A DNA stretch of 64,000 nucleotides from Tabrizicola thermarum (lineage in GTDB: Bacteria > Pseudomonadota > Alphaproteobacteria > Rhodobacterales > Rhodobacteraceae), in assembly GCF_003574395.1 (NCBI RefSeq), contig NZ_QMJY01000083.1, positions 1 through 64,000 on the forward strand, written 5' to 3'. How positions within the stretch are numbered: the stretch's first letter is position 1; each line of letters opens with the position of its first letter. The translations under genes were made by a program, and so were the position numbers. Below are positions 4,954 to 27,715 of this stretch, one piece after another. The notes beneath the pieces are model-generated. The model saw nothing but the letters and a program-made list of their open reading frames with translations, made no database searches and was not told where the DNA came from.

Positions 4954-5621
4954 AGCTGGAAACCTACCCCGACCGCGAAATGATGATGCTGCAAGTGGCC
5001 AATGTGATCGCCGGGCAGCTGGCCGATTTCCTGCGGCGCGAGGGCAGGGCTACGCTGTCGGTGCCGGGCGGGACGACGCCGGGGCCGATCTTCGACACTC
5101 TGTCGGGGGTCGATATCGACTGGACCAATGTCGCGGTGGTCCTGAACGACGAACGCTGGGTGCCGGAAAGTTCCGAGCGGTCGAACACGCGGCTGGTGCG
5201 TGAAAGGCTGCTGCGCGGCCGGGCGGCGCAGGCGCGGCTGGTGCCGCTTTATGCGCCCGCCGAGACGCCCGAGGAGATGCTGGCGGCGCTGGAGGATGGT
5301 CTGCGCCCGCATCTGCCGATCTCGGTCCTGTTGCTGGGCATGGGGGCGGACATGCACACGGCAAGCCTTTTCCCCGGCGCCGACCGGCTGGAAGAGGCGC
5401 TGTCGGCCGATGCGCCCCTGCTGTTGCCGATGCGCGCCGAGGCGGCGGGAGAGCCGCGCGTCACGCTGACCGCGCGGGTGCTGCGCGAGGCGTTCAACAT
5501 CCACATCCTGATCACCGGGCCGGAAAAGCGCGAAGCCCTGGACCGCGCGATGAGCCTGACGCCGATGGAGGCGCCCGTGCGGGCGGTTCTGGACAACGCA
5601 ACCGTGCATTGGGCGGAATGA
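4950..5621 (+). CDS. pgl: 6-phosphogluconolactonase
   Basis: This 223-aa protein of the DevB/Pgl type hydrolyses 6-phosphogluconolactone to 6-phosphogluconate. Family blocks are [16 protein letters not shown] (phosphate-binding), NDERWVP around residue 67, [16 protein letters not shown] near 128-143, and [10 protein letters not shown] near the C-terminus. The start overlaps the zwf stop (ATGA), indicating translational coupling. It sits between zwf and pgi as in many Rhodobacterales, so the operon converts glucose 6-phosphate toward the Entner-Doudoroff pathway and interconverts it with fructose 6-phosphate. Confidence 0.96.
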
Positions 5622-5622
5622 G

Positions 5623-7221
5623 ATGAGCAAATGGTCTGATCTTCAGCGGCTTCACGAGGTGAAGAAGGGCCGCCATATTCTTGATCTCTTTGACGAAAGC
5701 CGGGCCAGAGAGTTCTCGGTCACGGCGGACGGGATGCTGTTCGACTATTCCAAGACCAACATCGACGGCGAGACGCGGGCGGCCTTGCTGCGGTTGGCCG
5801 AGGTCGCGGGCGTGGCGGAAAAGCGCGCGGCGATGTTCTCGGGGGCGAAGATCAACGATACCGAAGGCCGGGCGGTGCTGCATGTGGCGTTGCGGGCCGG
5901 GGAGGAAGCGCGGATCGAGGTGGACGGCAAGAATGTCTTGCCCGAGGTCCGGCGGATTCGGGCGGCCTGTGCCGCCTTTGCCCGCGACGTGCGCTCGGGG
6001 GCCTTCCGGGGCGCGGGTGGCCGGATCACCGATGTGGTGAACATCGGGATCGGCGGGTCGGACCTGGGGCCTGCGATGGCCTGTCTGGCGCTGGCGCCCT
6101 ATGCGGACGGGCCGCGCTGTCATTTCGTGTCGAACGTGGACGGCGCGCACATTCATGACGTGCTGCAAGGGCTTGATCCGACGACGACTTTGGTGATCGT
6201 CGCATCCAAGACCTTTACCACCATCGAGACGATGACCAATGCCGATACGGCGAAACGCTGGATGGCGGCGAAGGTGGCGAACCCGGCGGCGCAGTTCGCG
6301 GCGGTGAGCACGGCAAGTGACAAGACCGCCGCCTATGGCATTGATCCGGCTCGGGTTTTCGGGTTCGAGGACTGGGTCGGCGGACGCTATTCGATGTGGG
6401 GGCCGATCGGGCTGAGCCTCATGATCGCCATCGGGCCGGAGGCGTTCGATCAGTTCCTGGCGGGTGGTCGCGCGATGGACCGGCATTTCCTGGACGCGCC
6501 TTTCGCGGCGAACATGCCGGTGATGCTGGCGCTGGTGGGGGTCTGGCACAACCAGATCTGCGGCCATGCGACGCGGGCGGTTCTGCCCTATGATCAAAGG
6601 CTTGCGCGGCTTCCTGCCTATTTGCAGCAGCTGGAAATGGAAAGCAACGGCAAGCGTGTGGCCATCGACGGGTCGGACCTGGAGACCCATTCCGGCCCCG
6701 TGGTCTGGGGCGAGCCGGGGACGAACGGGCAGCATGCCTTCTATCAGCTGATCCATCAGGGCACGCGGGTGGTGCCCTGCGAATTCCTGGTGGCCAAGCG
6801 CGGGCATGAGCCGGACCTGGCGCATCAGCATCTTCTGCTGGTGGCGAACTGTCTGGCGCAGGCCGAGGCTTTGTTGCGGGGCCGGTCGCTGGAGGAAGCC
6901 CGGACGATCATGGCGAAGAAGGGGCTGACGGGGGCGGAGCTGGAGCGGCAGGCGCGACATCGCGTGTTCCCGGGCAACCGGCCTTCGACCGTGCTGGCCT
7001 ATGAGCAGCTGACCCCCTTCGTTCTGGGCCAGATCATCGCGCTTTATGAGCATCGGGTGTTCGTGGAGGGCGTGATCCTGGGGATCAATTCCTTCGATCA
7101 GTGGGGGGTGGAGCTGGGCAAGGAACTGGCGCTGGCCTTGCAGCCGGTGCTGGAGGGCAAGGTGGGCACGGGCGGCAAGGACGGGTCCACGGCGGCGCTG
7201 GTCGCGTTCCTGCGGGGCTGA
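5623..7221 (+). CDS. pgi: Glucose-6-phosphate isomerase
   Basis: This 532-aa protein interconverts glucose 6-phosphate and fructose 6-phosphate. Visible family blocks: [26 protein letters not shown] (phosphate binding), [24 protein letters not shown] with the catalytic Glu, and [12 protein letters not shown] with the catalytic Lys. The length matches the family. It starts 1 nt after the pgl stop and closes the zwf-pgl-pgi operon, ahead of a strong pair of hairpins shared with the convergent ridA gene. Confidence 0.97.
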
Positions 7222-15081: not shown

Positions 15082-15127
15082 TGGCTCCGGCGGTAGGGAT
15101 CGAACCTACGACCAATTGATTAACAGT
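15082..15127 (-). repeat. attL, 46-bp copy of the tRNA-Asn 3' end
   Basis: Identical over 46 bp to 25339-25384. It encodes the 3' part of tRNA-Asn but is not followed by a proper 5' half. The sequence just beyond it (15128-15152) still shows scattered resemblance to a tRNA 5' half (TAC..GCTG.GC), as if the element's own att carried a degenerate tRNA copy. Confidence 0.9.
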
Positions 15128-15149
15128 TACTGGTTTACGCGCTGTGCCG

Positions 15150-15288
15150 CCTAGGATAACCTAGGACGACTGTGCTAGAACACCAACAAACGCAAGCGTT
15201 TACAGGGTGTTGCTCCGCAGTCGTCCCCGATCCGGCCTAGGTCGGTGAAGGGACCGGACCGGGCCAAGACTAGTCCTAGGGCAGTCTT
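15150..15288 (+). promoter_or_regulatory. Repeat-rich integrase control region with nested hairpin
   Basis: Between attL and the integrase lie four CCTAGG motifs (15150, 15160, about 15235 and 15275), the first two in CCTAGGATAACCTAGGAC. A 63-nt nested inverted repeat occupies 15164-15226: outer arms GGACGACTG/CAGTCGTCC, middle AACACC/GGTGTT, inner AAACGC/GCGTTT. A further inverted repeat AAGACT/AGTCTT (15266-15288) flanks AGTCCTAG 20 bp before the integrase start. These are candidate integrase arm sites and/or repressor operators. Confidence 0.5.
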
Positions 15289-15308
15289 ACAGTGAGTGGA
15301 GCGAGCGA

Positions 15309-16601
15309 GTGACGACGAAACTGACCGACGGAGCCGTGGAGCGGCTCCCCTTCTCCGAAAAGCAATACACCGTGGCCGACGCGACGCCGGGGCTATTCCT
15401 CGTGATCGGTCCCGCCTCGAAGACGTGGACGGCGCGGGCGAGCGGACCGGACCCGAAGACCGGCAAGAGCCGCCAGCACAAGAAGGCGCTCGGACACTTC
15501 CCCGAGATCAGCGTGAAGACTGCGCGAGAGCTGGCCGGAGAGTGGGCGAAGACGATCCGACAGGGGACGGCCCAGCGCAGCGAGACGACGCTGGCGGAGG
15601 GCTGGGAAAACTACCGCCGGTGGCTGGTTGCGAACGGGCGCAGCGTCGCGACGATCCGGGGCTATGAGTATGGCATGAAGCTCCTCGAAGACTTTCACGG
15701 CGCGACGCTGCGGCATCTCTCGGACAACCGGCGGCTGATCCACGAGCGGGCGCTCGAAGTCCTCGAAGAGATCGGGCAGGGAGCCCAGAACAGCCTGATC
15801 CAGACGCTAAAGGTGATCTACAACTTCGAGCTGGCCCGCGATACGTCGCTGCCGCCGATCCCGCCGACGTTCGGGCTGAAGGTCATCACGCTAGAGCGCG
15901 ACCGGGCGATGGGCGGGCACGAGCTGGCCGACTGGCTTGCGCAACTTGAGGCAAACGTCTCCTCGCCGGTAAAGCGGGCGTTCTGGTGGTTTCAGCTTCT
16001 CAGCGGCGCGCGGACCGGCGCTCTGCGGCGGGCGAAGTGGGAGCATATCGACCGCAAGCGCCGCGTGTTGACGATCCCCGAGGACAAGAACGGCGGTTAC
16101 GACCTGCCGCTGTCGCGCGAGATGATCCGGGCTCTGGTGCGCGCCGCTCGGGCGGGACGGGCGCTGAATCCGCTCGCCGCTTCGACGTTCATCTTTCCCC
16201 GCGATCCGCAACAGACGAGCGCCGACGACTTTATGGGCCATCCCGAGCCCCCGGGCATTCGGCAGGACGAGAAGCGCGCGAAGCTCGCCTATTACAACCA
16301 CGACCTTCGCCATTCGTGGCGCGGCTTCGCCGACGACGCCGGATTGAGCGAGGCAGACAAGGACGCTCTGGGCAACTGGAAGCCGAAAGGTCAGGGCGGT
16401 CGATACACCAATATCTCGAAGCGCAAGGCGGACCGGCTGCGTGAGCTTCAGGAGCAAGTGACCGCCGAGATATTGTCGCACCTTCCGAAGGATCGGCCCG
16501 GTAAGCCGTTGACGCCCAAGCAGAAAGCCGCTCCCGCCGGGCAATCCGGTAGCGCCGAAATCGTCCCCTTTACGAACGTGAAGCGACGCGCTACCGTTTG
16601 A
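15309..16601 (+). CDS. Tyrosine recombinase/integrase
   Basis: This 430-aa integrase starts at GTG 15309. It has an N-terminal arm-binding-like domain (residues 1-85), a SAM-like core-binding domain (about 95-190) and the C-terminal catalytic domain. Conserved residues visible are R235 in SGARTGALRRAKW, H331-x-x-R334 in NHDLRHSW, and the probable nucleophile Y366 in GGRYTNIS. It should catalyse insertion and excision at the tRNA-Asn repeats; its gene lies 180 bp inside attL and reads into the element. The GTG start is supported by the beginning of family-like sequence (TKLTDGAVERLP), although no strong ribosome binding site precedes it. Confidence 0.93.
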   Translation: MTTKLTDGAVERLPFSEKQYTVADATPGLFLVIGPASKTWTARASGPDPKTGKSRQHKKALGHFPEISVKTARELAGEWAKTIRQGTAQRSETTLAEGWENYRRWLVANGRSVATIRGYEYGMKLLEDFHGATLRHLSDNRRLIHERALEVLEEIGQGAQNSLIQTLKVIYNFELARDTSLPPIPPTFGLKVITLERDRAMGGHELADWLAQLEANVSSPVKRAFWWFQLLSGARTGALRRAKWEHIDRKRRVLTIPEDKNGGYDLPLSREMIRALVRAARAGRALNPLAASTFIFPRDPQQTSADDFMGHPEPPGIRQDEKRAKLAYYNHDLRHSWRGFADDAGLSEADKDALGNWKPKGQGGRYTNISKRKADRLRELQEQVTAEILSHLPKDRPGKPLTPKQKAAPAGQSGSAEIVPFTNVKRRATV

Positions 16602-16793
16602 GGCACTATAACCCGGGCGGGGTTGGAAGAGATCAATGCCTGCGGTCCCCTCCGACCTTCTCGACGGCTCCGGCTGTCGGGGAGGAGGAAAAACCTAGAG
16701 GGGGTCACACCAAGACGGCAGCGAGCGCAAGGCCCCGTAAGCTCCTCGCGCCCACCACGACGCAGGACGCCCTAGCGAAAGCTGGAGGCGTCT

Positions 16794-17093
16794 ATGCGTG
16801 TGTCGGATGACACTGAACAACTCGTTGCGCGGGCCGCGAAGATCGCGGCGGCGGAGCTTCTCGAACAATACGTGGCGAAGAACCCGAGCGGTCAGGTGAT
16901 CGCGCCGGAATGGCTCACGCCGGATATGGCGGCGACCTATATCGGCGTGTCGGTCGAAACGCTCGCGAAGTGGCGACAGCGGAACAACCCGGTGAAGGGT
17001 CCCCGCTTCGCCCGCATCGGCGAGCGCGTCACGCGGTATCGGAAAGCCGACCTCGATGCGTGGTGCGAAGCCCAGCTCCAGTCGAAGGAGTGA
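16794..17093 (+). CDS. Excisionase/AlpA-like helix-turn-helix protein
   Basis: This 99-aa protein carries a MerR/excisionase-type winged helix in residues 40-95: LTPDMAATYIGVSVETLAKWRQ followed by RFARIGERVTRYRKADLDAW, the standard pattern of AlpA/Xis DNA-binding proteins. The N-terminal 35 residues are helical. Proteins of this type switch on or assist excision in satellites and islands. It begins 192 bp after the integrase, with GCTGGAGG upstream, and ends 5 nt before the primase gene, with which it is probably co-transcribed. Confidence 0.85.
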   Translation: MRVSDDTEQLVARAAKIAAAELLEQYVAKNPSGQVIAPEWLTPDMAATYIGVSVETLAKWRQRNNPVKGPRFARIGERVTRYRKADLDAWCEAQLQSKE

Positions 17094-17098
17094 GGGCG

Positions 17099-19795
17099 AT
17101 GAGCGGCGAGCGGCACAAATCCGTCCGGTTCCTGCAGGGGCTGTTTCCCGACAAGTCGGCGAAGGTCCAACTTGTGCGGATCAGGAAGGCGAAGGACGAC
17201 GACAAGCAAACGAGGCGCTTCGCCGGGATCAGCGTCGAATACGTGAACCCCCATACGGAAGCTCCGAAGATCGTCGGGTGGATTGACGAGCGGAACGGAT
17301 CGACCGCCCGATGGGATTACTACTTCGCGCTGAACGGCGTGCTACCCGACCTTCACGACAAGGCGAGGAAGGAGCACACGCACCTATTCCGGGGCTTTCA
17401 CGTTGATATCGACTGCGGCGAAGACCCGGAAGCCCAGAAGAAGGCGCTGGCGAAGCTGACGACCGAGCGCCCCAAGGGCGTTCCCGAGCCGACGGCGATT
17501 GTCGCCTCGGGCGGCGGGTATTGGGCGTTTTGGATGCTGGCCGAGCCCATCGAGGTCGGAGCCGGGGCGGAACAGGACACGCAGCTTGTCGCCAACCTCG
17601 AAGACGTGAACGAGCGGCTGCGCGACATCTTCGACGGCGATACCGGCACCACCGACATATCGCGCATCGCGCGGCTCGCCGGGACGAACAACTTCGCGTC
17701 CGACAAGAAGCCGCACCGCACCGACAAGCTCGCGATGGTGATTCACGACGATTGGGGCACGGGACAGACGCCCCGCCGCTACACGCTGGGCGACTTCGTG
17801 AAGCTCCCGGCTGCTCCGCGCAAGCGAGAGCTGGACGAGAAGGCGCGGCTGTCGGTAGGTGTGGCGAAGGCCGAAGGGGATGCCCGCGCGTGTCCTCCGG
17901 CAGCGGAGACGTGGAGCTGGGCGGCGCTGGGCTATGCGGTCGATGCGAAGGACCCGACGACACCCACCAACCCGGACGTGCTCAGCGCCGTGATCGCGCA
18001 AGGTCCCGACGGGCGGGTAGGGCTCGACGGCATCGACCCAGGCACGAGCTGGAAGAAGCCCGACGGAAGCTGGAACCGCTCCGAAGCGGTCTTCTGGGTG
18101 TGCGCCGAGATGGACCGGCGGGGCGTGCCGCCCGAAGTCGCGGCGGCGGTGATCCTCGACCGGAAGATGCTCATCTCCGACCACCTCTACAGCCACGTCG
18201 CGGGCGACGGCGCGCGGGATCGGTTCAAGCGCGAGATGTATGCCCGTCGGCAAGTCGAGCGGGCGATGAAGGCGAACGACCTCGCGCGGCTCGCGATGCT
18301 GAACGACCCGGACCCGCCGCACAACCTCGAAGACTTCCGCGAGTGGTGCGCGCTACGCTACGCGACCGTGGAGAACGTGGGCAACAAATACCGCGTCTTG
18401 ATCCGCGAGGGCGTGGACACCGATCAACACACCTTCATGACGGTGGCCGAGTTCAAGCGGCGCTTCGACGGCTTCACGGTCGGCTGGCCGAAGGAGGTGA
18501 AGGGCGAAACCATCTTCGAGCCGAAACACGCGGGCGATGCGTTCCTGTATGATCCCCAGCGGGTGCGCTACCGGGGCATCGTCTTCGATCCGCGCGGCGA
18601 CCTCGCGGGACCTCGCGACTTCAACGAGTGGCAAGGCTTCGCGCCCTACCTCGGGCCGAAGATCGGCACGTTCAACTTGTTCCGCGAGCTGGTCGAAGGC
18701 GTGATCTGCTCCGGCATTGATGAGCACTACCGCTACCTTTGGCGGTGGATGGCGATGCCCATTCAGCAACCCGGCTACAAGCACGGCGTCGCCGTCGCGC
18801 TGCGGGGCGACTACGGCACCGGCAAGACGAAGTTCGCGGAACGGTATGGTGATCTGTTCGGACCGCACTTCGTGAGCGTTTCCGGCACCCGGTCGGTCGC
18901 TGGGCACTTCAACGCCCACCTGCATAAGCGTCTGCTCGTGCTCGCCGATGAGATCCACGCCCATCATGGGGCAGAGGTCTGGGCCGCGCTGAAGAAGGCG
19001 ATCACGGGCGAAACGATGATGGTCGAGTTCAAAGGTGCGGACGCCTTCGAGACGCGGTGCTACTTCAACCTGATCGCGGCGGGGAACGACGTTCAAATCC
19101 TGAAGGTCGATAGCGAGGAGCGGCGCTGGTTCGTGCCGACCATAAAGAACACCCGAAAGCAGGACAAGGTGTGGTTCGCGAAACTGGACGCGGAGTGGGC
19201 CGACGGCGGCAAGGAGGCGCTGTATCACCACCTACTGCACGAGGTCGATACGACTGGCTTCGAGACCGAGCCCCATCCCCGCACGGCGGGCTTTCGCGAG
19301 CAGGCGAGGCACTCCCTGAAGGGTGCTGAGAAGCTGGTCGATGCGTTCCTCAGCGCGGCGACGGTGCCGCCTATCCGCCATCCCGATACTGAGGAGATGG
19401 TCGGACCGTTCTTCCGCAACGGCGCGAGCGGCACGCCTAAGCAGGTCTTCGTCTCGACAACGGCACTTCTCGATTGGGGGCAGAAACAGCGGCTGGTCCC
19501 GAACGACGACGGGGAGAGACAGCGGATGATTACAGGCGTCGGGCTAGAGCTGAAGAAGGCGGCGATCCCCGTCAACAGCGAGGATGACAAGCGCGTCCAT
19601 CTTCGAGGCACGTCGCGATACGTCTACGGCGCTTGGCTAGACGACGTGCGCGAGTGCCGCCGCCGTTACGCGGAGGCGAAGAATTGGGACCCGGCTGTAG
19701 CCTACAAGGACTGCCCGAGAGAATGGGACGTGGGCGACGATCCCGACCGGCGCGGCTCGACGCGGCGGCGCGACCCCGGCGAGGGGATATTCTGA
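17099..19795 (+). CDS. Primase-polymerase/helicase replication protein
   Basis: This 898-aa protein has GAAGGAG before its ATG. The N-terminal region has archaeo-eukaryotic primase features: the metal-binding DxD at D103/D105 in GFHVDIDCGED, and a glycine-rich nucleotide motif ASGGGYWAFW at about 136-145. ISRIARLAGTNNF follows, as in RepB/NrS-1-type prim-pols. The second half is a superfamily-3-like helicase (DUF5906 type): Walker A GDYGTGKTKF near residue 570 and Walker B LLVLADEIHA near 615. It should prime and unwind the element's DNA at excision or replication. A 600-bp non-coding region follows, a plausible origin. The reading of motif III is less certain. Confidence 0.85.
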   Translation: MSGERHKSVRFLQGLFPDKSAKVQLVRIRKAKDDDKQTRRFAGISVEYVNPHTEAPKIVGWIDERNGSTARWDYYFALNGVLPDLHDKARKEHTHLFRGFHVDIDCGEDPEAQKKALAKLTTERPKGVPEPTAIVASGGGYWAFWMLAEPIEVGAGAEQDTQLVANLEDVNERLRDIFDGDTGTTDISRIARLAGTNNFASDKKPHRTDKLAMVIHDDWGTGQTPRRYTLGDFVKLPAAPRKRELDEKARLSVGVAKAEGDARACPPAAETWSWAALGYAVDAKDPTTPTNPDVLSAVIAQGPDGRVGLDGIDPGTSWKKPDGSWNRSEAVFWVCAEMDRRGVPPEVAAAVILDRKMLISDHLYSHVAGDGARDRFKREMYARRQVERAMKANDLARLAMLNDPDPPHNLEDFREWCALRYATVENVGNKYRVLIREGVDTDQHTFMTVAEFKRRFDGFTVGWPKEVKGETIFEPKHAGDAFLYDPQRVRYRGIVFDPRGDLAGPRDFNEWQGFAPYLGPKIGTFNLFRELVEGVICSGIDEHYRYLWRWMAMPIQQPGYKHGVAVALRGDYGTGKTKFAERYGDLFGPHFVSVSGTRSVAGHFNAHLHKRLLVLADEIHAHHGAEVWAALKKAITGETMMVEFKGADAFETRCYFNLIAAGNDVQILKVDSEERRWFVPTIKNTRKQDKVWFAKLDAEWADGGKEALYHHLLHEVDTTGFETEPHPRTAGFREQARHSLKGAEKLVDAFLSAATVPPIRHPDTEEMVGPFFRNGASGTPKQVFVSTTALLDWGQKQRLVPNDDGERQRMITGVGLELKKAAIPVNSEDDKRVHLRGTSRYVYGAWLDDVRECRRRYAEAKNWDPAVAYKDCPREWDVGDDPDRRGSTRRRDPGEGIF

Positions 19796-20399
19796 TGCTG
19801 TGGTGCTCGGTCTGTTCGGGAGGTGAGGTATGCCGTAGGGGGGTGTCCGACAGGGGTGTCGTAGGGCTAAGTGTTTGTAAGCGTTGCGCGAATTGCGCTC
19901 GAAAGTGTGTTTTCGGCAGTTCGGCTGGTTCGGTGCATCACCTACTGCGGAGAAATCCGCCTAGGGGGTATCGCTCTCTCCTTCTTCTCTCTCTTTCTCT
20001 TACTATAGAAACTATAGAAGCTATCAAACTAGGGAGAGAAGCCCTTGAGAAGATTGCGGATTTCCGTCCGACAGTCCGATTGGGGGTAGGGGAATACGCC
20101 TGGGCTACTTGGCAAGGGATGGGGTGCGATGGTGCGGGTAGCTCGATTGGGCTCCTGCAGGACGTTTCGCCGATCTGTCCTTCGACATCAAGAAAAAGGT
20201 CTGTACTTCTTACCTATTTGCACTCCGCAACAGCCCGAGCGCACCCGATCCGCAGCCCGTTTAACGGTCCACTAGTTCATCGTGCCACCGGACCTCCCAA
20301 TCTTCCTTGGGCTTCGGGCATCCGGGGCCACCAGCCGCCTACGATTAGGACTAGCGAACACAGTCCTAGCCAAAAACGCACACACGAAAGGAACACACT
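19796..20399 (+). other. Non-coding region, candidate origin of the element
   Basis: No convincing gene. It holds a 30-nt pyrimidine run (CT repeats, about 19974-20004), directly followed by ACTATAGAA twice in tandem and the related GCTATCAAA, a locally AT-rich island in GC-rich DNA. A CCTAGG motif lies at about 19971 and an inverted repeat at 20346-20368. Position next to the primase-helicase gene suggests an origin with iterons; this is inference from layout. Confidence 0.45.
20346..20368 (+). promoter_or_regulatory. Inverted repeat upstream of the hypothetical gene pair
   Basis: TAGGACT (20346-20352) and AGTCCTA (20362-20368) form a perfect 7-bp inverted repeat 31 bp before the gene at 20400. 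AGTCCTAG also occurs in the integrase control region at 15272, so one element-encoded or host factor could bind both. Confidence 0.45.
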
Positions 20400-20903
20400 A
20401 TGATGACCTACGCTATTCAGCCGCCGGAGAAGGACATTGATCTTCGGCTCGCCGTCGAAACCCTTCGCGACGCGATCCGCGAGGAACACGCCTCGCGCCA
20501 CCGGACGTATGACCGCGAGCGCGACATCTACCTCACGCGCGAAGGCTTCGTGCCGCTCGCCGATGAAGCTGTCGAGGAGCGGCTGACCGCCACGCTCGGC
20601 TACTACCTGTTGACCGAACCCGACCCGGGCGACTGGTTCCGCCGCAGCCTCGCGCGCTACCTCGCCTCGAAGCAGCTCAGCCTCACCGAGCCGGAGGAGC
20701 TGAAGCAGATCGCCGCCTACCTCTGCATCACCGAGCCGGAGTCACCCATCTCGATGATCGTCTGGCTGGAAAAGTGCAAGCCGAGCATCAGTTCTGTCCG
20801 CTCCAACGACTTCGCCGTATATTGGGCGAAGTGGACCGTCGCCGCAGAGGAGCGCCGTATCGCGGGCATTCGCGCCCTCGCCTTCGAGGAGGAGGCGCAA
20901 TGA
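20400..20903 (+). CDS. Element-encoded protein of unknown function
   Basis: This 167-aa protein has no family I recognise. AAAGGA lies 8 nt before ATG 20400 (a second ATG follows at once). The sequence is acidic and mostly helical: residues 10-45 are charged (VETLRDAIREEHASRHRTYDR), 55-75 contain ERLTATLGYYLLTEP, and 95-135 carry EPEELKQIAAYLCITEPE. One cysteine pair (C109, C125 region) is present. The stop overlaps the next start (ATGA), so the two proteins are probably made together and may interact. It has no membrane segment or signal. Cargo, regulatory or satellite-specific roles are all open. Confidence 0.7.
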   Translation: MMTYAIQPPEKDIDLRLAVETLRDAIREEHASRHRTYDRERDIYLTREGFVPLADEAVEERLTATLGYYLLTEPDPGDWFRRSLARYLASKQLSLTEPEELKQIAAYLCITEPESPISMIVWLEKCKPSISSVRSNDFAVYWAKWTVAAEERRIAGIRALAFEEEAQ

Positions 20904-21661
20904 CGACCTCGGCTGAACGCGAATACGCCCACCGCCGCGTCTACGGTCGCTCGTGGGGCTTCAACGTCCACAAGGGAGCGAAGGCGCTGCGCGCGGTCGA
21001 ATGGCGGCGCTACCTCCATCCCTACGGCTATTGGTTCGTTCCCGGCGTGGGCGACGATCCCGGCACCGAGTATCTGTTCAATCGGGAGTATCGCCCCATT
21101 CACCGCCGTCCGTTCAAGACGCGCGTGGACAAGACGGCGATGTTTCCGACCGACCGCTTCCCCGACGGCGGCTCCGCAAACCACTTCCTCGCAGGGGTGC
21201 CCGCGCCCCTAGTCGGCCCGCATCCGGCTCACCGTAAGGAGCTTCGTGCCCGCCTCGGCAAGGAAGGGGCGGAGCGCATTCACGGGATCGCTTTCGAGGG
21301 ATGGTTCTACTTCGACGGCAACCCGCCCTATCGGGACGAAGATTGGGAGGTTCATACTTGGGCGACGCTCGACGCCTTCATCGGCGGCGAGGACATTCGG
21401 CATCGCTTCTTCTCGACACACGAGCCCTTCACGTTCCCGGACGGCTACCACGTGCCGAAATTGCGCGGTTTCGATCCGTGGGTCACGGAGGAGCTACCCC
21501 GCCTTCGGCGATGGAGCGCGGTCTACACCGACAGTCCGCCGTATCCTGATCGGCCCGAAAGGTGGTTCACGAAGGACGGCCCCGCGCCGATCACGAGACC
21601 GCAGCCCACCGCCTCCCGCGCCCGCGCGCGTAGGCACGATGCTTTGGCCGACCGCGCCTAG
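20900..21661 (+). CDS. Element-encoded protein of unknown function, aromatic-rich
   Basis: This 253-aa protein is translationally coupled to the gene before it. It is unusually rich in Trp, Tyr, Phe, His, Pro and Arg, with stretches such as YLHPYGYWFVPGVGDD and GWFYFDGNPPYRDEDWEV and a basic tail (residues 225-253). It has no membrane helices, no signal and no recognisable catalytic motif. High aromatic content with many turns suggests a compact beta-rich domain. The reading frame is consistent in codon use throughout, so the gene looks real. It could be a DNA-binding or phage-interference protein, but nothing in the sequence proves that. Confidence 0.7.
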   Translation: MTTSAEREYAHRRVYGRSWGFNVHKGAKALRAVEWRRYLHPYGYWFVPGVGDDPGTEYLFNREYRPIHRRPFKTRVDKTAMFPTDRFPDGGSANHFLAGVPAPLVGPHPAHRKELRARLGKEGAERIHGIAFEGWFYFDGNPPYRDEDWEVHTWATLDAFIGGEDIRHRFFSTHEPFTFPDGYHVPKLRGFDPWVTEELPRLRRWSAVYTDSPPYPDRPERWFTKDGPAPITRPQPTASRARARRHDALADRA

Positions 21662-22040
21662 CGCCCGCCCGTCCCGGATCGCCCAACCGGGGCGGGCTCC
21701 CGAGCCCCTTCCTGGGCTCTCCGCCGCACGTTACTTCTGCACCCAACAATTCGATTGTTTCACCTAGCCTAAACGGATCGTTTCCGGCCCACTCTCGCCC
21801 GACAACATTGACTCACTCCGCCCCGCGTGGCACCTTCTTCGGGTCGCGTGGATGTGGAAGAGAGCCGGGTGGAACTCCCGGATTTGCGCAAGCATCCTGC
21901 AAGCCGCTTGAGCCGCTAAAGGGCTCTTAGTCCGAACCACCGGATGCGGGCCGACTTCAACCAACCTTGCGTTGGTCGGGTCGGCCTTTTTGATTCTTGG
22001 GTCGGTCCGGTCGGCGCTCCTAGCTCAAGGAGAGCAAGCT
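21662..22040 (+). other. Intergenic region with possible structured RNA
   Basis: No gene of convincing quality. The second half (about 21830-21948) has several short inverted repeats (CCGGG/CCCGG around 21860; GAGCC/GGCTC around 21910) and runs directly into a strong intrinsic terminator at 21949-21991. This would fit a short structured RNA of 120-160 nt or a leader of the gene at 22041. Confidence 0.4.
21949..21991 (+). terminator. Intrinsic terminator
   Basis: Arms GGCCGAC (21949-21955) and GTCGGCC (21980-21986), with an inner ACCAA/TTGGT pair, are followed by TTTTT (21987-21991). It ends a transcript coming from the left, 50 bp before the gene at 22041. Confidence 0.8.
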
Positions 22041-22490
22041 ATGAGTGTGCAAAACACGATCAACATTAATCGAGCCATCGAAATCAACATCGCGGACCGT
22101 CTCGAACACCGACCGGGCGAGGACGCTTGGGACGGGTCCGAGCCGGATTTCTACCGGATCGCGTTGGAACTCGACTACCTCGAAGCCCTAGAGCTTCGTG
22201 GTTGGTGGGGGGCGTTCAGCAACTGCATGTATTGCGAGCAGGTGTTGCGCAATTTCGGACCTCTGGTGTCGGCGGCGGCAACCCATGAGACCTCCGGCGA
22301 GCACGCGGATGGTCTTGTTGTAACATTGAACATTCTCGACGCCATCTGGTGGCACCTAGACTGGCAGATGTTCGTCGCTCAGCGCGACGACAAAGCGCAG
22401 CGATACATGAGGTTCATCCAGCATCTGATTGCTGAGCTGCGTCGGCATCTCAAGGCCCAGCAAGGTTCCGAAGCAGTCGCCGCCGAGTAG
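22041..22490 (+). CDS. Element-encoded protein of unknown function
   Basis: This 149-aa protein is preceded by CAAGGAGAG 6 nt before ATG 22041. It is acidic in the first half (EHRPGEDAWDGSEPDFYRIALELDYLEALE, quoted in part: residues 24-50) and helical in the second, with WWGAFSNCMYCEQVLR and DAIWWHLDWQMFVAQ giving two Trp-rich amphipathic segments. A CxxC pair is present (C61, C64). I recognise no family. It has its own leader after a terminator and is followed by a strong hairpin, so it is monocistronic and independently expressed. This is a pattern often seen for cargo or small regulatory genes in islands. Confidence 0.7.
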   Translation: MSVQNTININRAIEINIADRLEHRPGEDAWDGSEPDFYRIALELDYLEALELRGWWGAFSNCMYCEQVLRNFGPLVSAAATHETSGEHADGLVVTLNILDAIWWHLDWQMFVAQRDDKAQRYMRFIQHLIAELRRHLKAQQGSEAVAAE

Positions 22491-22578
22491 CCTCAATAAC
22501 CCTTGCTCGACCAACTCCCAACGACCGCGTAGGCTTCCCCTCGCTGGTCCCTCTCAGGGTGAGGGGATCGCCCCATAG

Positions 22579-22606
22579 AAGGCCCCGGGATCGCTCCCGG
22601 GGCCTT
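22579..22606. terminator. Bidirectional terminator before vsr
   Basis: Perfect 12-bp arms (AAGGCCCCGGGA at 22579-22590 and TCCCGGGGCCTT at 22595-22606) with a TCGC loop lie between the convergent genes at 22041 and vsr. The A and T ends make it usable in both directions. Confidence 0.8.
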
Positions 22607-22608
22607 CG

Positions 22609-23031
22609 TCATTCCGGGCCTCCGAGGAACAGCCGAATGCGCTCCTGCAGGGCGGTTTCATCGCGCGTCTCGCACTCCCAGATCACGAGCACCCGCCATC
22701 CCGCCGCGCGCAGCGCCGCCTGCGCCACCGCGTCGCGCTCGACGTTGCGCGCCAGCTTCGGCGTCCAGTAGCCCTCGTTGCTCTTGGGCGGTCGCCCGTC
22801 GAGGCATTCGGCCTTGTCGTGCTGATGCCAGAAACAGCCGTGAACAAAGATCACCGCGCGGCGCGGTCCGAAGACCAGATCAGGATTCCCCGGCAGGTCC
22901 TTGCGATGCAGCCGGTATCGGTAGCCTATCCCGTGGGCGAGACGGCGCACCACCATCTCGGGCTTCATATCGCGGCTGCGGATGCGCCGCATATTCGCGC
23001 TGCGCCGCTCCGGGCTGATCCGGTCGGCCAC
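22609..23031 (-). CDS. vsr: Very short patch repair endonuclease
   Basis: This 140-aa nuclease nicks beside T:G mismatches left by deamination of 5-methylcytosine and so protects methylated sites from C-to-T mutation. It matches the Vsr family throughout: RSANMRRIRSRDMKPE at the N-terminus, LPGNPDLVF with the metal-binding Asp, VIFVHGCFWHQHD with catalytic histidines and zinc ligands, and NVERDAVAQAALRAAGWRVLVIWEC. The start codon is GTG at 23031, overlapping the stop of the endonuclease gene (TAGTG), so it is the last gene of the methyltransferase-nuclease-vsr unit. Its substrate should be the methylated base in the partner enzyme's site. Confidence 0.95.
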   Translation of the reverse strand: MADRISPERRSANMRRIRSRDMKPEMVVRRLAHGIGYRYRLHRKDLPGNPDLVFGPRRAVIFVHGCFWHQHDKAECLDGRPPKSNEGYWTPKLARNVERDAVAQAALRAAGWRVLVIWECETRDETALQERIRLFLGGPE

Positions 23032-23909
23032 TACACACGCCAGCCCGCCGCCCGCGCCGCTGCCAGTTCATCCGGCGCGGTCGGGCGGTAGGACACGAAG
23101 TCACCGAGGGGGAGCCCGAGCCGACGGATCAGCGGGCCGTCATAGGTGCCGGACAGCAGCAGGATACCTTCGGCGGCAAGCCGGTCGCGCGTTCCGCGCC
23201 CGTCGTCCGACCGGATACGGCGCATGAAGTCCTTCTGGCGCGCGACCGCCTCGACCGTCTCACGCGAGATAGGCACGCCCCGCACCTCGCGGAACAACGC
23301 CATGACGCGGGCGTTGCCGCTGTTCCCGGTGAAGATGCGTTCCACCGCGTCGGGCGGCACCGTGCGCCAGAAGTTCGGCGGGTAGGGGTGATCTGCGAAG
23401 ATCCAGAGAATGTGCTGAAACTGCGGCCTAGCGATGCTGCGCTTCGCGTCTCGGTTCGCCCCGGCGGTGAGATACTCGGGCCGCGCGACGACCAGCCCGA
23501 GCGCGCACCGCGCCCGGTCTTCGTCCGCCGCCACGAGGATGCAGGGATGCCCGACCGCCTCCTGCGGGATCATCCAGTTGCCCGTCATCGTGTGCTTGAT
23601 GTCGGTGTCGTGGCCCGCCACACGGGTATCGAGCCGACCGCGCGGCAGCTTGAGCAGCGCCCGCAGCATAATCTCGACGCGGGTGCCGATGTAGGTCTTC
23701 TCGGTCTTCTCCAGCTCGGCATACGACCGCCGCCCCGTTCTGGGCGTCTGGATCACGTCGTCAATGACCTCGCGCAGCAGGGCCGGAACCTCTGCCGCCA
23801 GCCGTCCCGGTCCGCCCGCACGGCGTTCCAGATCGGCGCGGATCGCCGAGAGCGTCGCGAAGTCGGGATGCCCCGGCACAACAATGCTGGCGGGTAACGT
23901 CTTGGCCAA
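23031..23909 (-). CDS. Type IIE restriction endonuclease, NaeI-like
   Basis: This 292-aa protein resembles NaeI along most of its length as I recall that sequence. The block YAELEKTEKTYIGTRVEIML aligns with the NaeI segment holding KTEKT and GTLVEI. TGNWMIPQEAVGHPCIL and GANRDAKRSI also correspond, and the C-terminal half keeps DFMRRIRSDDGRG and AEGILLLSG. Candidate active-site residues are E79, D94, D103 and K105 (DTDIKHT), placed as in the NaeI D-x-K site. NaeI cuts GCCGGC after binding a second site copy; the same specificity is expected but unproven. It lies between the methyltransferase and vsr and is a little shorter than NaeI at the C-terminus. Confidence 0.88.
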   Translation of the reverse strand: MAKTLPASIVVPGHPDFATLSAIRADLERRAGGPGRLAAEVPALLREVIDDVIQTPRTGRRSYAELEKTEKTYIGTRVEIMLRALLKLPRGRLDTRVAGHDTDIKHTMTGNWMIPQEAVGHPCILVAADEDRARCALGLVVARPEYLTAGANRDAKRSIARPQFQHILWIFADHPYPPNFWRTVPPDAVERIFTGNSGNARVMALFREVRGVPISRETVEAVARQKDFMRRIRSDDGRGTRDRLAAEGILLLSGTYDGPLIRRLGLPLGDFVSYRPTAPDELAAARAAGWRV

Positions 23910-23920
23910 GCCCGGTGATT

Positions 23921-23940
23921 CCCCTCACTGTTCGGAGGGG
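23921..23940 (-). promoter_or_regulatory. Hairpin between methyltransferase and endonuclease genes
   Basis: Arms CCCCTC (23921-23926) and GAGGGG (23935-23940) lie in the 63-nt gap upstream of the endonuclease start at 23909. It could slow nuclease expression relative to the methylase; there is no controller gene in the set. Confidence 0.4.
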
Positions 23941-23972
23941 CAATGTTGCACACGGGCGGCGGAGCGTCGAGC

Positions 23973-24932
23973 TTAGCTGCCGACGGCGTAGACGCGGCGG
24001 ACGCTCAGCGCAGCGGCCACGCTCTTGCCCACGGCACGGGCGACCGGCGGCGGGAAGGCGTTCCCGACCTGCCGATAGGCGGCGGTCTTGCGACCCGTGA
24101 AGGTCCAATCGTCCGGGAAGCCCTGCAGGCGCGCAACCATCGGCACCGTGAGCCTCGGCATCCCCACGAAGTCGCGCCCGGGCGCTTCCTCGGCGACCGT
24201 CTTGCCGTTCACGCCGAGCGTTTCCCACGCCCGCCGCGCCCTCGTTGGGCCGAGGTCCGGTCCGCCGTGCTTCTTCGATCCACCCACGATGGTCGGCGCG
24301 ATCTCATCGGCCCGCTTCGCCCACGCAGAGGCTCCCGGCCAGCCGTTCGCGGCCATCATATCGCGGAGCACAGCCCCGACTTTGGGCGGATTGTGATGCT
24401 GTTCCTCGGGCCACTCGAAGCCGTCGGCGAGGTCGGACCGGACGGCGACGATCACGACACGCGGGCGGAGTTGCGGAACGCCGAAGTGCGAAGCGTTGAG
24501 CAGCCGCCAATCGGTGACGTAGCCGAGTTTGGCGAGCTGGCGCTTCAGCCCCTCGCGGTAGTCGTGAAACACTGCGTCGAGGAAGCCGCGCACGTTCTCG
24601 ATCATCACTCCCTTGGGCCGGGTCGCGGCGACGATCTCAAGGGCGTCCGGGAACAGGTTGCGTTCATCCGCCGCCCCGAGCTGCTTTCCGGCGACCGAGA
24701 AGGGCGGGCACGGAAGCCCACCGGCTAGAAGGTCGATCCCGGCGAAGGCGGACGCCTGTTCCTTGAAGCAGCGCAGGTCTTCTTCGAGGACGTTCCAGTT
24801 GGGCCGGTTCGCCCGCAGCGTGGCGCAGCAGTGCGGGTCTATCTCGATCAGCGCGCGATGCTCGAAGCCTGCCTGTTCGAGCCCGAGAGCCTGTCCGCCC
24901 GCGCCCGCGCATAACTCCACCGACGTCAACAT
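23973..24932 (-). CDS. DNA (cytosine-5-)-methyltransferase of the R-M system
   Basis: This 319-aa enzyme has motif I VELCAGAGGQALGLEQAGF at residues 5-23. Motif IV is GGLPCPPFS with catalytic C75 (PCP rather than the commoner PCQ), motif VI is ENV (112-114), motif VIII QLRPR (154-158) and motif X VGNAFPPPVARA near the C-terminus. The target-recognition region (about 175-265) is short. ATG 24932 is preferred, with GGGAGAG 6 nt upstream; a longer frame to 25001 adds 23 unrelated residues. It precedes the NaeI-like nuclease by 63 nt on the same strand, so it should protect that enzyme's site. Vsr downstream is consistent with 5-methylcytosine. Confidence 0.93.
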   Translation of the reverse strand: MLTSVELCAGAGGQALGLEQAGFEHRALIEIDPHCCATLRANRPNWNVLEEDLRCFKEQASAFAGIDLLAGGLPCPPFSVAGKQLGAADERNLFPDALEIVAATRPKGVMIENVRGFLDAVFHDYREGLKRQLAKLGYVTDWRLLNASHFGVPQLRPRVVIVAVRSDLADGFEWPEEQHHNPPKVGAVLRDMMAANGWPGASAWAKRADEIAPTIVGGSKKHGGPDLGPTRARRAWETLGVNGKTVAEEAPGRDFVGMPRLTVPMVARLQGFPDDWTFTGRKTAAYRQVGNAFPPPVARAVGKSVAAALSVRRVYAVGS

Positions 24933-25338
24933 ATCGCCGCTCTCCCGCCCGGATGCCCTACAGGTAGGTGTAGCCGAGTGAATCGGCCTTGTCCCGCCCA
25001 AATTGATGTTCTCCGATTATTCCTAGCAGAGCGTTACCGCCGTCGCAAGCCGAGCGACGCGCCCACCGGACCCCGCCTCAATCCGCTGGGCTTTTCTTTC
25101 CACTCTGGGATCGGGTATACTTACCGCGTTGAAGCTGCTCGCTCGCTTTGCTCAACATCGGACGCTCTCGGGACGAAACCCCGCCCGGTCTAGCCCGAGG
25201 GCGTCCACCCCTCCCCAAGCCACGATATGCACCGGTTTCGAGCCCGAAAGGGGCCGTATGCTAGCCTTAAACCAGCCCTAACAGCTAGTCTTACCGCCGC
25301 CGAGGGCGGCTATCTCTGGGCTAACTATCTGAGAAGAT
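24933..25338. other. Right end of the element, non-coding
   Basis: No gene seen. It should contain the leftward promoter for the methyltransferase operon. Near the right repeat there are GCTAG and CTAAC-type repeats (25260-25330) and a CCGCC/GGCGG hairpin at about 25301-25316, possibly right-arm integrase sites. Confidence 0.4.
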
Positions 25339-25384
25339 TGGCTCCGGCGGTAGGGATCGAACCTACGACCAATTGATTAACAGT
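25339..25384 (-). repeat. attR, 46-bp repeat within tRNA-Asn
   Basis: Identical to 15082-15127; here it forms the functional 3' part of the tRNA gene, so integration leaves the tRNA intact. Confidence 0.92.
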
Positions 25385-25413
25385 CAACTGCTCTACCGCT
25401 GAGCTACGCCGGA
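25339..25413 (-). tRNA. tRNA-Asn (GTT anticodon)
   Basis: A complete 75-nt cloverleaf on the minus strand with encoded CCA: acceptor TCCGGCG pairs with CGCCGGA, the D arm is GCTC/GAGC, the anticodon loop CTGTTAA gives GTT, and the T loop is TTCGATC. Its 3' 46 nt are the attR repeat of the integrated element. Confidence 0.96.
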
Positions 25414-25482
25414 ACACGCGGGGTCTATAGCAAGGCATGTCGGGAGCGGCAAGAGGCAAAACCGGGGAAAATGCGGCTGGGG

Positions 25483-26349
25483 TCACCTGAGTGCGAATTC
25501 GGCCTCGGGATGCAGGTCGGGGTCAGCCTTCACCAGGTTTCTTGTCGCCAGATCAATAAGATGCGCCAGCACGTTGCGCGCGGCCGCGGGCAAGAGCTGC
25601 GACGGGGTGCCGGAATAGACCCGCGAGGTCAGCGCGGGAATGCGGGCAGGTCCCTCGGCCAGCGCGGCAAGGATCTGCGCCTCGCGGCCCCGTCGGTGGG
25701 CGATCAGGTCGGCCAGGCGGCGGGCAGGGTCGCCGACCGGCGCGCCGTGGCCGGGCAGACAGCGGGTCCAGGACGTCTCGCTCAGCCGCTGAAGCGAGGC
25801 CATGTAGGCGGCCATGTCTCCGTCCGGGGGCGAGACGACGGAGGTGGACCAGCCCATGACGTGGTCTCCGGAAAAAAGCGTATCCCCCAGGGCCAGGCAA
25901 AGGTGGCCGCCAAGATGGCCGGGCGTGTGGAGCGCCCGCAGCGTCCAGTCCGGGCCCGACAGGCTTTCGCCGTCCGACAGGATGACATCCGGCGCGAAGC
26001 CGTGGTCCAGCCCTTCGCCGTGATCGGGCAGGGTAGGGGCCAGCCGGGCCATCACCGCGCTGCGCCCTGCGGTTGCGGGGCCGAAGGCGTGGATCGGCGC
26101 CCCGGTCAGCGCGGCGAGCCGCTGCGCAAGGGCCGAGTGGTCCCGATGGGCGTGGGTGACGATGATCCGGTCGATCTGCTGTCCCGGCCCGAGGGCGGCC
26201 AGGATGGCGGACAGATGCGCGGGGTCGTCCGGGCCTGGGTCGATCACCGCAAGGCGGGCGGCTCCGACCAGCCAGGTATTGGTCCCGGCCCCGGTCAGCG
26301 GCGAGGGGTTCGGGGCAAGGAGGCATCGGATCGGCGGGTCTGCGGTCAT
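25483..26349 (-). CDS. MBL-fold metallo-hydrolase (LACTB2/glyoxalase-II-like)
   Basis: This 288-aa protein has the metallo-beta-lactamase motif THAHRDHS (H66, H68, D70, H71), TPGHLGGHLC with the third-site His, and FSGDHVMGW with the bridging Asp. CLPGHGAPV and a C-terminal helical domain (about 220-288) follow the core, as in the LACTB2-type hydrolases common in alphaproteobacteria. The opening GTNTWLVG is typical of the group. The physiological substrate (thioester, phosphodiester or RNA) is not evident. It is monocistronic between tRNA-Asn and the divergent kinase gene. Confidence 0.85.
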   Translation of the reverse strand: MTADPPIRCLLAPNPSPLTGAGTNTWLVGAARLAVIDPGPDDPAHLSAILAALGPGQQIDRIIVTHAHRDHSALAQRLAALTGAPIHAFGPATAGRSAVMARLAPTLPDHGEGLDHGFAPDVILSDGESLSGPDWTLRALHTPGHLGGHLCLALGDTLFSGDHVMGWSTSVVSPPDGDMAAYMASLQRLSETSWTRCLPGHGAPVGDPARRLADLIAHRRGREAQILAALAEGPARIPALTSRVYSGTPSQLLPAAARNVLAHLIDLATRNLVKADPDLHPEAEFALR

Positions 26350-26407
26350 GCGGCTTTCCGGTCGGGTGGCTTTCCAAAGGAGCGGGGGCCAGATAGGCTT
26401 TGCCGCG

Positions 26408-27715
26408 ATGTCGGTCTTGCAACGTATCTTTCCCAGGGGCCTTTACGGCCGCGCGGCGCTGATCCTGATCGTGCCGATCCTTGCCATACAGCTGGTCTTT
26501 TCCACCGAGTTCATCCAGCGCTTCTATGAAGACGTGACCGGGCAGATGACGCAAGGGGTGGCGATCGACCTGGCCTTCCTGATGGACGAGATTGCCGCCA
26601 GTCCTTCGCTGGAGGCCGCGCGCGACCGGGTGACGCCGCTGGCCACGGCGCTGGAGATCACCCTGACGCTTCCCGCGGGCGAGGGCGCGCCGCTGGCGGA
26701 CCGCAAGAACCGGATCGACCTGTCCGGCGACACGATCATCTCGACCCTGCACAGCCGGCTGCCCGGACTGGTTGCGGTGGATCTGACCCGGCAGGACCGG
26801 ATGGTGAACCTGCGCTTCGACAGCCCGTTCGGTCCGGTGCAGGCCGAAGTCAGCCGGCGGCGGATGTCGGCCGCCAATCCGCACCAGCTGATCGTGCTGA
26901 TGCTCTTCGCCTCGGTGCTTCTGACGGTGATCGCCTATTACTTCCTGCGCCGCCAGTTGCGCCCCATCACCAAGCTGGCCGAGGCGGCCGAGGCCTTCGG
27001 CAAGGGGCGCTCGGTCCGCTATCGCCCGCGCGGTGCGCTGGAGGTGCGGGCGGCGGGCCGGGCCTTCCTGGACATGCGGGCGCGGATCGAGCGGCAGATC
27101 GAGCAGCGGACGCTGATGCTGTCCGGCGTCAGTCACGACCTGCGCACGCCCCTGACACGGATGCGGCTGGCCTTGTCGCTGATGCCGGAGGATCCCGAGG
27201 TGGCGGCGCTGCAGGCCGATGTGATGCAGATGGAGCGGATGGTCGATGAGTTCCTTTCCTTCGTCCGGGGGGACGCGATGGAAAGCTCGGTCCCGACGGA
27301 TGTCGTCGCCCTGGTGCGGGGGGTCGCCGACCGGACGGGGGCGGTGCTGGCCGGTGTCGAAGGCCCGGCCGAGCCGGTGATGATGCGGCCGCAGGCGATC
27401 GTGCGGGCGGTGGAAAATCTGGTCGGCAACGCGCAGCGCTTCGGCAAGCGGGTGGAGTTGCGCCTGATCTTTCAGGAGCGCAGCCTGCGGATCGTGGTCG
27501 AGGATGACGGCCCGGGCATCCCGGCGGATCGGCGCGAGGAAGCCCTGCGCCCCTTCACCCGGCTGGAGGCGTCCCGCGATCCGAACCGGGGGGCGGGGGT
27601 GGGGCTGGGCTTGTCGATCGCGTCCGACATCGCGCTGAGCCACGGCGGCGCGTTGCGGCTGTCGGAGAGCGAGACGCTGGGCGGGTTACGGGTGGACCTG
27701 GTGATCGCGCGCTGA
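26408..27715 (+). CDS. EnvZ-like sensor histidine kinase
   Basis: This 435-aa inner-membrane kinase has TM1 at about residues 15-35 and a periplasmic region to about 155. TM2 lies at about 162-180, a HAMP linker follows, then the HisKA box SGVSHDLRTPLTRMR with phospho-acceptor H243. The catalytic domain has NLVGNAQRFGK (N box), DDGPGIP (G1) and GAGVGLGLSIASDI (G2). The overall layout resembles EnvZ. No response regulator is adjacent, so its partner is encoded elsewhere. ATG 26408 fits the hydrophobic N-terminus; an in-frame upstream ATG at 26348 would add 20 polar residues. It ends flush against the convergent CAP gene. Confidence 0.88.
   Translation: MSVLQRIFPRGLYGRAALILIVPILAIQLVFSTEFIQRFYEDVTGQMTQGVAIDLAFLMDEIAASPSLEAARDRVTPLATALEITLTLPAGEGAPLADRKNRIDLSGDTIISTLHSRLPGLVAVDLTRQDRMVNLRFDSPFGPVQAEVSRRRMSAANPHQLIVLMLFASVLLTVIAYYFLRRQLRPITKLAEAAEAFGKGRSVRYRPRGALEVRAAGRAFLDMRARIERQIEQRTLMLSGVSHDLRTPLTRMRLALSLMPEDPEVAALQADVMQMERMVDEFLSFVRGDAMESSVPTDVVALVRGVADRTGAVLAGVEGPAEPVMMRPQAIVRAVENLVGNAQRFGKRVELRLIFQERSLRIVVEDDGPGIPADRREEALRPFTRLEASRDPNRGAGVGLGLSIASDIALSHGGALRLSESETLGGLRVDLVIAR

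Follow-up and report, generated by a model that had tools for sequence, protein, structure and literature searches.

A 64,000-nt stretch of contig NZ_QMJY01000083.1 of Tabrizicola thermarum (the window throughout) carries at a tRNA-Asn gene a 10.3-kb element with an integrase at one end and a restriction-modification (R-M) operon at the other, and the question is what kind of mobile DNA this element is. The best-studied phage satellites come from Enterobacterales, Vibrionaceae and Gram-positive hosts, and none from Rhodobacterales or Sphingomonadales was found in the open literature, among the matches listed. A phage-satellite-like integrative element with R-M cargo was judged, with modest confidence, to be the best explanation of the locus. 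If this is true, R-M systems in these two orders travel on satellites, and the depletion of 6-bp palindromes described below would serve as a sequence-only test of island movement between hosts, because the same R-M genes were strongly depleted on elements and far less so off them.

That the element is integrative is nearly certain. The two 46-bp repeats that bound it in this Rhodobacteraceae host lie where the sequence-only reading had placed them, and they are identical (Table 1). A search of its own genome with positions 25330-26700 returned the two repeat copies and, apart from them, a single short match that is unrelated (of 231 candidates, 12 were scored). The 4-mer distance between the element and the host flanks was 0.303, against 0.087-0.125 for eight equal-length flank segments, which places the element 2.4 to 3.5 times further from the host. 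The tRNA-Asn flank was present in 30 of 32 genomes of the genus (own included); a second repeat copy was located 8-10 kb away on the same contig in G296, G317 and G321 and on another contig in G320, and G299 and G306 were ambiguous. The genes of these other elements were unrelated to those of the window (tblastn with nine window proteins, 1e-3), the sole match being a distant C5-cytosine methyltransferase in G321 (28%). The sequence directly beside the tRNA in G298 was homologous to the region just outside attL in G317, G321 and G320, so that G298 represents the empty site and the other three the filled one; a hairpin adjoining the repeat was seen in G298, G317 and G321. The tRNA-Asn gene is an integration hotspot in the genus, with both empty and filled sites, and no related genome was seen with these genes at the locus but lacking the repeats. 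In none of the other genomes compared did tRNA-Asn adjoin the left flank of the window, which by eye holds a malK-type gene, and therefore we infer the precise empty site of this element. By eye, the tRNA-Asn elements of G296 and G317 (~10 kb; L050 1936-11654 and L051 1874-11912) carry portal-, protease- or capsid-like genes and resemble capsid-forming satellites or prophage remnants.

All three core genes gave profile matches, as had been proposed for the integrase beside attL, the AlpA-like protein and the primase-helicase. The integrase matched Arm-DNA-bind_3 (4.8e-10) and phrog_1 (1.2e-24), its match to Phage_integrase PF00589 (1.1e-5) falling just under the Pfam cut-off, and it contains GARTGAL at residue 233, DKNGG at 259, HDLRHS at 331 and GNWKPKGQGGRYTN at 355, motifs whose catalytic roles we presume. 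For the AlpA-like protein, a match to TIGR01764 under its cut-off (1.4e-4) and one weak phrog_57 row (E 0.12) were also obtained. The primase-helicase matched DUF5906 PF19263 (8.4e-17), a VapE-like family (1.6e-6) and phrog_1156 (1.5e-33) and has the motif GDYGTGKT at residue 570; no Pfam match was detected for its primase half. Phage primases aligned at ~30% over 82% of this protein with E values as low as 3e-70 (matches in 247 of 50,697 phage records). Scans of viral contigs and genome contigs with the primase-helicase (P0003), and of viral contigs with the integrase (P0001), returned no relatives at the sensitivity of those scans. In a tree of 28 hand-chosen primases, the window protein fell in a supported set (99/96) of 13, made up of itself, 10 of 10 phages and 2 of 17 elements. 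Structural, lysis and conjugation genes were not recognised among the nine proteins in library scans, in agreement with the sequence-only reading.

Relatives of the element were detected in other genomes. Integrase relatives at E <= 1e-25 were present in 6 of 290 genomes and primase-helicase relatives at 1e-10 in 28 of 295, own included in both. The integrase, AlpA-like and primase-helicase genes occurred in the same order at tRNA-Asn in G080, G221 and G096, with repeats of 47-50 bp that share the same 46-bp core and are 11.3-12.2 kb apart; the G221 integrase has one stop. An integrase and a primase-helicase were found at tRNA-Thr between 48-bp repeats in G100, and a similar element with an imperfect repeat at tRNA-Arg in G278. 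A scan of genome contigs with the integrase alignment gave 109 relatives, mostly alphaproteobacterial by title, and among the 80 kept, an AlpA-like match was present in 12, while the window primase and the terminase small subunit (TerS)-like protein of the siblings each had a match in 11; three of the 12 AlpA-positive loci are apparently repeat records of G100, G080 and G096. Two Sphingomonadales-type members (L111 and L140) were located near tRNA-Lys (48 of the 80 loci were scanned for tRNA). The earlier proposal of an undescribed family of primase-based islands gained from this search, which turned up distant elements that share the integrase-AlpA-primase module but differ in cargo, some at the same tRNA and some at other tRNA genes.

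The Rhodobacterales members have in common a resolvase, a TerS-like protein and proteins of ~250 and 127 aa, some also one of 86 aa (c250, c127 and c86), and no Pfam or PHROG match was found for the last three in those scanned. Most of the sibling elements encode such a TerS-like protein, which is a hallmark of packaging. The TerS-like proteins were assigned by their match to phrog_309; E ranged from 1.7e-8 to 3.1e-4 among the four tested, which include L111 and L084, and in L100 an unknown family outscored phrog_309; L109 was left out of the TerS alignment due to a stop codon in the chosen frame. In L111 the TerS-like gene is followed by a terminase large subunit gene (phrog_2 9.2e-27, Terminase_6N 5.5e-11). 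Genes like it, judged by position and start, were seen in L133 and L140 (about 15160-16920). Sibling cargo includes a type ISP R-M protein (L080) and an Eco57I-like methylase (L083), both at the tRNA end, AbiTii (L168), and, in the Shimia sibling L079, an M78/helix-turn-helix protein with a P4-beta-family protein (PF14350, 2.9e-49; 4680-5798). The integrase and primase of the window aligned with those of the siblings at about 26-37% identity over long alignments and 46% over one short stretch. The group of L080, L083, L098, L100 and their kin is marked by the integrase-alpA-primase module plus a TerS-like gene, with c250, c127 and mostly c86 in its Rhodobacterales members; the window element has this module, and no TerS-like gene was found in it. 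Judged from these alignments, the element is a divergent branch of the sibling lineage. Several sibling primases align with one another over only ~45% of their length, which suggests swapped halves.

The cargo had been read as a methyltransferase, a NaeI-like nuclease and Vsr, and each gave a strong family match (Table 1). The nuclease belongs to the NaeI family by its match to PF09126 and by its active-site positions: it aligned with NaeI, a type IIE enzyme (PDB 1ev7), over residues 42-277 with E70, D86, D95 and K97 kept (numbering counted by hand on the 1ev7 alignment), but differs in that its gene shares an operon with Vsr and is part of a mobile element. We take these four residues to be catalytic in NaeI and GCCGGC to be its recognition sequence, which for the window enzyme is a prediction only. 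GCCGGC was absent from the element against 6.6-6.8 expected copies, which is no more than consistent with such a specificity. NaeI relatives occurred in 14 of 290 genomes, own included; 10 of the other 13 were read together and G042 separately (G066 and G151 were left out). A methyltransferase was adjacent to NaeI in all 10 loci, and Vsr was found beside it in none. Six of the 10 loci have a tRNA-Gly(gcc) 135-210 bp from the methyltransferase start and no satellite gene in the stretch; these are L209-L211 and L215-L217, and a second tRNA-Gly copy was seen beyond the pair in L215-L217.

Locus L208 (G235) carries a TerS-like gene (95% to that of L080), c258 (91%), c86 (85%) and a c138-like match (36%), followed by NaeI (84%) and the methyltransferase (83%) beside tRNA-Thr. 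Its contig starts inside the TerS gene, so that no integrase or primase was seen, and from its gene content L208 looks like a fragment of a sibling element. In G042 the pair (65% and 74%) is located near another integrase-primase module, for which a second att repeat was looked for and not found. Given its presence in the window, L208 and G042, the cassette apparently moves from element to element; both in the window and in L208 it lies at the tRNA end.

The element is strongly depleted of 6-bp palindromes. Observed/expected ratios (O/E) were calculated with a maximal-order Markov model, which is not codon-preserving, and absence was counted at an expectation of at least 2. The element (10,211 bp) contains 77 six-base palindromes against 214.7 expected (O/E 0.36), and 17 of the 30 palindromes with sufficient expectation were absent, including GCCGGC, CCGCGG, GGCGCC, CGGCCG, CTCGAG and GGATCC, whereas none of 1662 non-palindromic hexamers was. 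In its own flanks (35 overlapping windows of equal length) O/E was 0.56-0.66 with at most 19% absent. Palindrome density was 7.0 per kb in the backbone, 7.7 in the middle and 8.4 in the cargo, compared with 15.3 in the flanks. The 13 siblings tested had O/E values of 0.29-0.56 (0.415 as the median of all 14, window element included), and all eight that were compared with their own flank fell below it. Sibling limits taken from genome contigs are approximate (about 10 kb from the integrase); L109, L170 and L173 (copies of L079, L080 and L083) and L171 (short contig) are not in the list, and the 13 are not independent cases, since L080, L081, L169 and L175 are close relatives (at least 91% in several proteins).

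Among the controls, 58 left flanks of integrase loci had a median O/E of 0.83 with a 5% quantile of 0.63, and 49 stretches of ten kb adjoining integrase relatives that lack the module ranged from 0.56 to 1.03. One control flank, at the Aliihoeflea integrase locus L104 (1-9200), was at 0.46 and is probably another mobile element. Other elements at the same tRNA-Asn gave 0.59 (L050, still without 13 of 30 sites), 0.78 and 0.88, and the gene transfer agent (GTA) cluster of the host 0.59 with 0 of 34 absent. The NaeI-methyltransferase pair itself showed 7.4 (window) and 9.5 (L208) palindromes per kb versus 13.6-24.9 in the nine loci that had no satellite genes, with a pooled O/E of 0.39 versus 0.75 (one-sided rank p 0.02, n = 2 vs 9). 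Avoidance of 6-bp palindromes is known for plasmids and is stronger in small and in broad-host-range plasmids, according to the available text of PMC10359461, and no published report of it in satellites was found among the matches listed. The depletion suggests that the element and its relatives may travel frequently between bacteria.

Phage-inducible chromosomal minimalist islands (PICMIs) and Gram-negative phage-inducible chromosomal islands (PICIs) are the closest known kinds by gene content, and the element could be assigned to neither. The PICMIs of Vibrionaceae, in the available text of PMC10803314, combine an integrase, AlpA and a DUF5906 primase with few unknown genes, no capsid-remodelling genes and a direct repeat by the integrase, as here. 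The three genes of their model, which accepts PF05930 or PF12728 (HTH_17) for alpA, are co-located in the window, with PF00589 just below its cut-off. However, the same text gives integration at fis as a hallmark, which the window element, in tRNA-Asn of an alphaproteobacterium, lacks; PICMIs are 6.7 kb on average, whereas this element is larger, carries R-M cargo and has siblings with TerS. That model had 135 matches in complete genomes, 67 of them in Vibrionaceae, with only incomplete PICMI-like variants in other species. Gram-negative PICIs of the EcCICFT073 type, as far as the available part of PMC6092414 describes them, share the integrase at one end, AlpA, a primase-replication gene, the absence of recognised structural and lysis genes and the accessory genes at the far end, and some have terS, as do the siblings. 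The window element holds this gene set (integrase, AlpA/MerR and pri-rep) in a length below the typical ~15 kb. An attachment site never used by prophages is listed there for Gram-positive PICIs, the abstract speaking of 'unique and specific' sites, but the target of the window element may not be exclusive, because tRNA-Asn is among the prophage integration sites of Rhodobacteraceae in the available text of PMC8224337, where the words 'satellite' and 'PICI' do not appear.

The likeness to P4 consists of the arm-binding-domain integrase, the AlpA/Vis-like excisionase and the alpha-type primase-helicase, with a beta-family gene in the Shimia sibling. In contrast, Pfam and PHROG scans of the nine proteins gave no match to the sid, psu, delta and epsilon families that go with the alpha primase and Vis in P4-like satellites, and P4 is not strongly depleted of palindromes. 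The capsid, portal and packaging genes of capsid-forming PICIs were likewise not found among the nine proteins. Of the label satellite-like integrative element, the integrative part stood, in tRNA-Asn; the element may be a satellite, and no terminase-like or capsid-remodelling gene was recognisable in it.

On the satellite reading, a phage would switch on AlpA; AlpA and the integrase would excise the element at the tRNA-Asn repeats; the primase-helicase would replicate the excised circle; and a helper phage would package it and inject it into new hosts, whose many different restriction systems would purge its palindromes. The methyltransferase-NaeI-Vsr operon would protect the lysogen and the niche of the element against other phages, Vsr repairing mismatches from deamination of methylated cytosine, and orphan genes A and B may replace the TerS module of the siblings. 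In PICMIs and PICIs, AlpA triggers excision or induction in response to the helper phage, and the primase gene is required for replication or full copy number, as stated in the available text of PMC10803314 and PMC6092414. Replication after excision is quite probable for the window element, and packaging by a helper phage is favoured by a small measure. It is possible, though somewhat doubtful, that the element belongs to a broad, undescribed alphaproteobacterial satellite lineage with swappable R-M or other defence cassettes at the tRNA end and with most 6-bp palindromes, also those of the cargo, purged as injected DNA passed repeatedly through hosts of many R-M specificities, the window element being a terminase-less branch in which A and B would provide a new way to capture helper packaging.

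Several results weigh against the satellite reading. No TerS, capsid-remodelling or other packaging gene was recognisable in the element, and sibling-family profiles run against the orphans (TerS to A and B, c250 to B, c127 to A) gave nothing. The window primase, which has a long branch, grouped with all the phages and few of the elements. No copy of the element was found in another strain, and hence there is no direct pair of empty and filled sites in this species. The integrase-primase-NaeI-methyltransferase region of G042 was not depleted beyond host level (O/E 0.66, 8 of 37 absent), and its cassette (L086; 12.6 palindromes per kb) lies between the two NaeI groups and was placed in neither. 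P4 showed little depletion (0.71) and phage RcSimone (11 kb) none (0.95); phage MW2 (11 kb) was at 0.54 with 12 of 27 absent, and 5-kb pieces of phages Simon and RHph_TM26 at 0.81 and 0.63. Palindrome depletion is therefore not a general mark of phage-like DNA. The only well-supported terminase large subunit (phrog_2) of the host genome lies in the GTA cluster (L191, G000:C67:20000-39000; GTA megatron E 0, HK97-type portal, protease and capsid), a second phrog_2 match being weak (2.6e-4). No resident helper is thus visible, and a helper would have to come from outside, as virulent phages do for PICMIs, or the GTA would be the vehicle.

The missing packaging gene and the GTA cluster are what would be expected of a self-replicating island that is no satellite, one that has its own integrase, AlpA and primase, moves by GTA, natural transformation or conjugative hitch-hiking and carries the R-M genes as host-benefit or post-segregational-killing cargo; the published palindrome avoidance of plasmids (PMC10359461, available text) fits it as well. 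Nevertheless, general scans of the nine proteins, made without an oriT search, gave no relaxase or conjugation match of the kind that marks integrative conjugative or mobilizable elements, the closest module relatives have TerS-like genes (L111 also the large subunit), and the kin of the primase are phages and small elements, so this account is doubtful. A decayed satellite or prophage remnant, now immobile, whose R-M operon is kept by the host, would explain the long non-coding stretches (19796-20399 and 21662-22040), the lack of TerS and the low similarity to all relatives found; it is unlikely, since the named genes are open, the integrase and primase motifs are in place, the att repeats are perfect, the tRNA is intact and the palindrome depletion spans backbone, middle and cargo. 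An origin of the depletion in the host lineage or in codon usage, with no bearing on transfer, is very improbable: the host flanks are depleted too and the null model ignores codons, but no such deficit is seen in non-palindromic hexamers, the R-M genes are far less depleted when they lie off elements, and the other elements at the same tRNA are less depleted. The satellite-like reading accounts best for the combined results.

Table 1. Coordinates of the features of the element and its target gene in the window.
Feature	Position	Strand	Remarks
attL	15082-15127		46-bp copy of the tRNA-Asn 3' part; 100% identical to 25339-25384
Tyrosine integrase, 430 aa	15309-16601	+	GTG start; attL end, distal to tRNA
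AlpA/Xis-like HTH_17 protein, 99 aa	16794-17093	+	HTH_17 PF12728 6.8e-8, phrog_66 9.3e-8
Primase-helicase, 898 aa	17099-19795	+	DUF5906/P4-type helicase domain
Non-coding stretch, 604 bp	19796-20399		two adjacent 9-bp repeats, 20002-20019
Orphan gene A, P0004, 167 aa	20400-20903	+	ATGA overlap with orphan B
Orphan gene B, P0005, 253 aa	20900-21661	+	
Terminator-like hairpin and T-run after orphan B	21974-21986	+	weak
Orphan gene C, P0006, 149 aa	22041-22490	+	one relative
Vsr mismatch endonuclease	22609-23031	-	TIGR00632 2.3e-44, Vsr 1.9e-29; 1-nt overlap with NaeI gene
NaeI-type restriction endonuclease, 292 aa	23031-23909	-	PF09126 1.8e-59; PDB 1ev7 6.6e-36
C5-cytosine methyltransferase	23973-24932	-	PF00145 1.2e-68
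attR	25339-25384		3' part of intact tRNA-Asn
tRNA-Asn(gtt)	25339-25413	-	integration target; gene left intact

The three genes starting at 20400, 20900 and 22041, which the sequence-only reading did not recognise, had no Pfam, NCBIfam or PADLOC match either (E limits 1, 0.1 and 0.1). Two insignificant PHROG rows (0.34 and 0.31) were obtained for them, with no usable PDB match (best E 0.23). No relative of orphan A was found in 290 genomes, phages and 80 integrase loci, and no credible relative of orphan B in 390 genomes, phages, plasmids, viral contigs and the 80 loci. A match of P0005 among the 390 genomes (E 9.5e-4 over 55 residues) was rejected as a relative: it spans a single short segment, it is doubtful whether its frame is coding, and its locus has no other element genes. 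The structures modelled from the single sequences of P0004 and P0005 (mean predicted local distance difference test scores 43 and 35) were too poor for a fold search. Orphan C had no relative in 290 genomes, viral contigs and plasmids; its sole relative among the 80 loci (36%, E 1.5e-9) belongs to the Pseudooceanicola element L168, where it sits in the cargo zone next to the AbiTii-like gene, and C is therefore more likely cargo than core. Accordingly, the three genes did not hold up as a feature of the family, since A and B have no credible relative and that of C lies among sibling cargo.

The stretch 19796-20399 is a candidate origin by position only; searches gave no clear iteron origin and no promoter-like site. 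The terminator after orphan B is rated weak because such sites were no commoner than in shuffles (8 vs 8.0). CTAG occurs 28 times in the element (10.3 kb) versus 14 times in 53.7 kb of flank, ten times denser, because the host avoids CTAG. Clusters of CTAG were considered as binding sites and rejected: the count fits the expectation for the element (27.7), five siblings lack such density, and the host avoids the sequence. GTAC was found once against 18 expected.

DUF5906-type primase-helicases in many phages (e.g., L182, L184, L185 and L189; Roseobacter phage RDJL Phi 1 and Bordetella phage MW2) carry the GenBank label 'integrase'. In the available text of a Rhodobacteraceae prophage survey (PMC8224337), 75% of lytic roseophages are credited with an integrase or repressor gene, a figure that may be inflated by such mislabelled primase-helicases.

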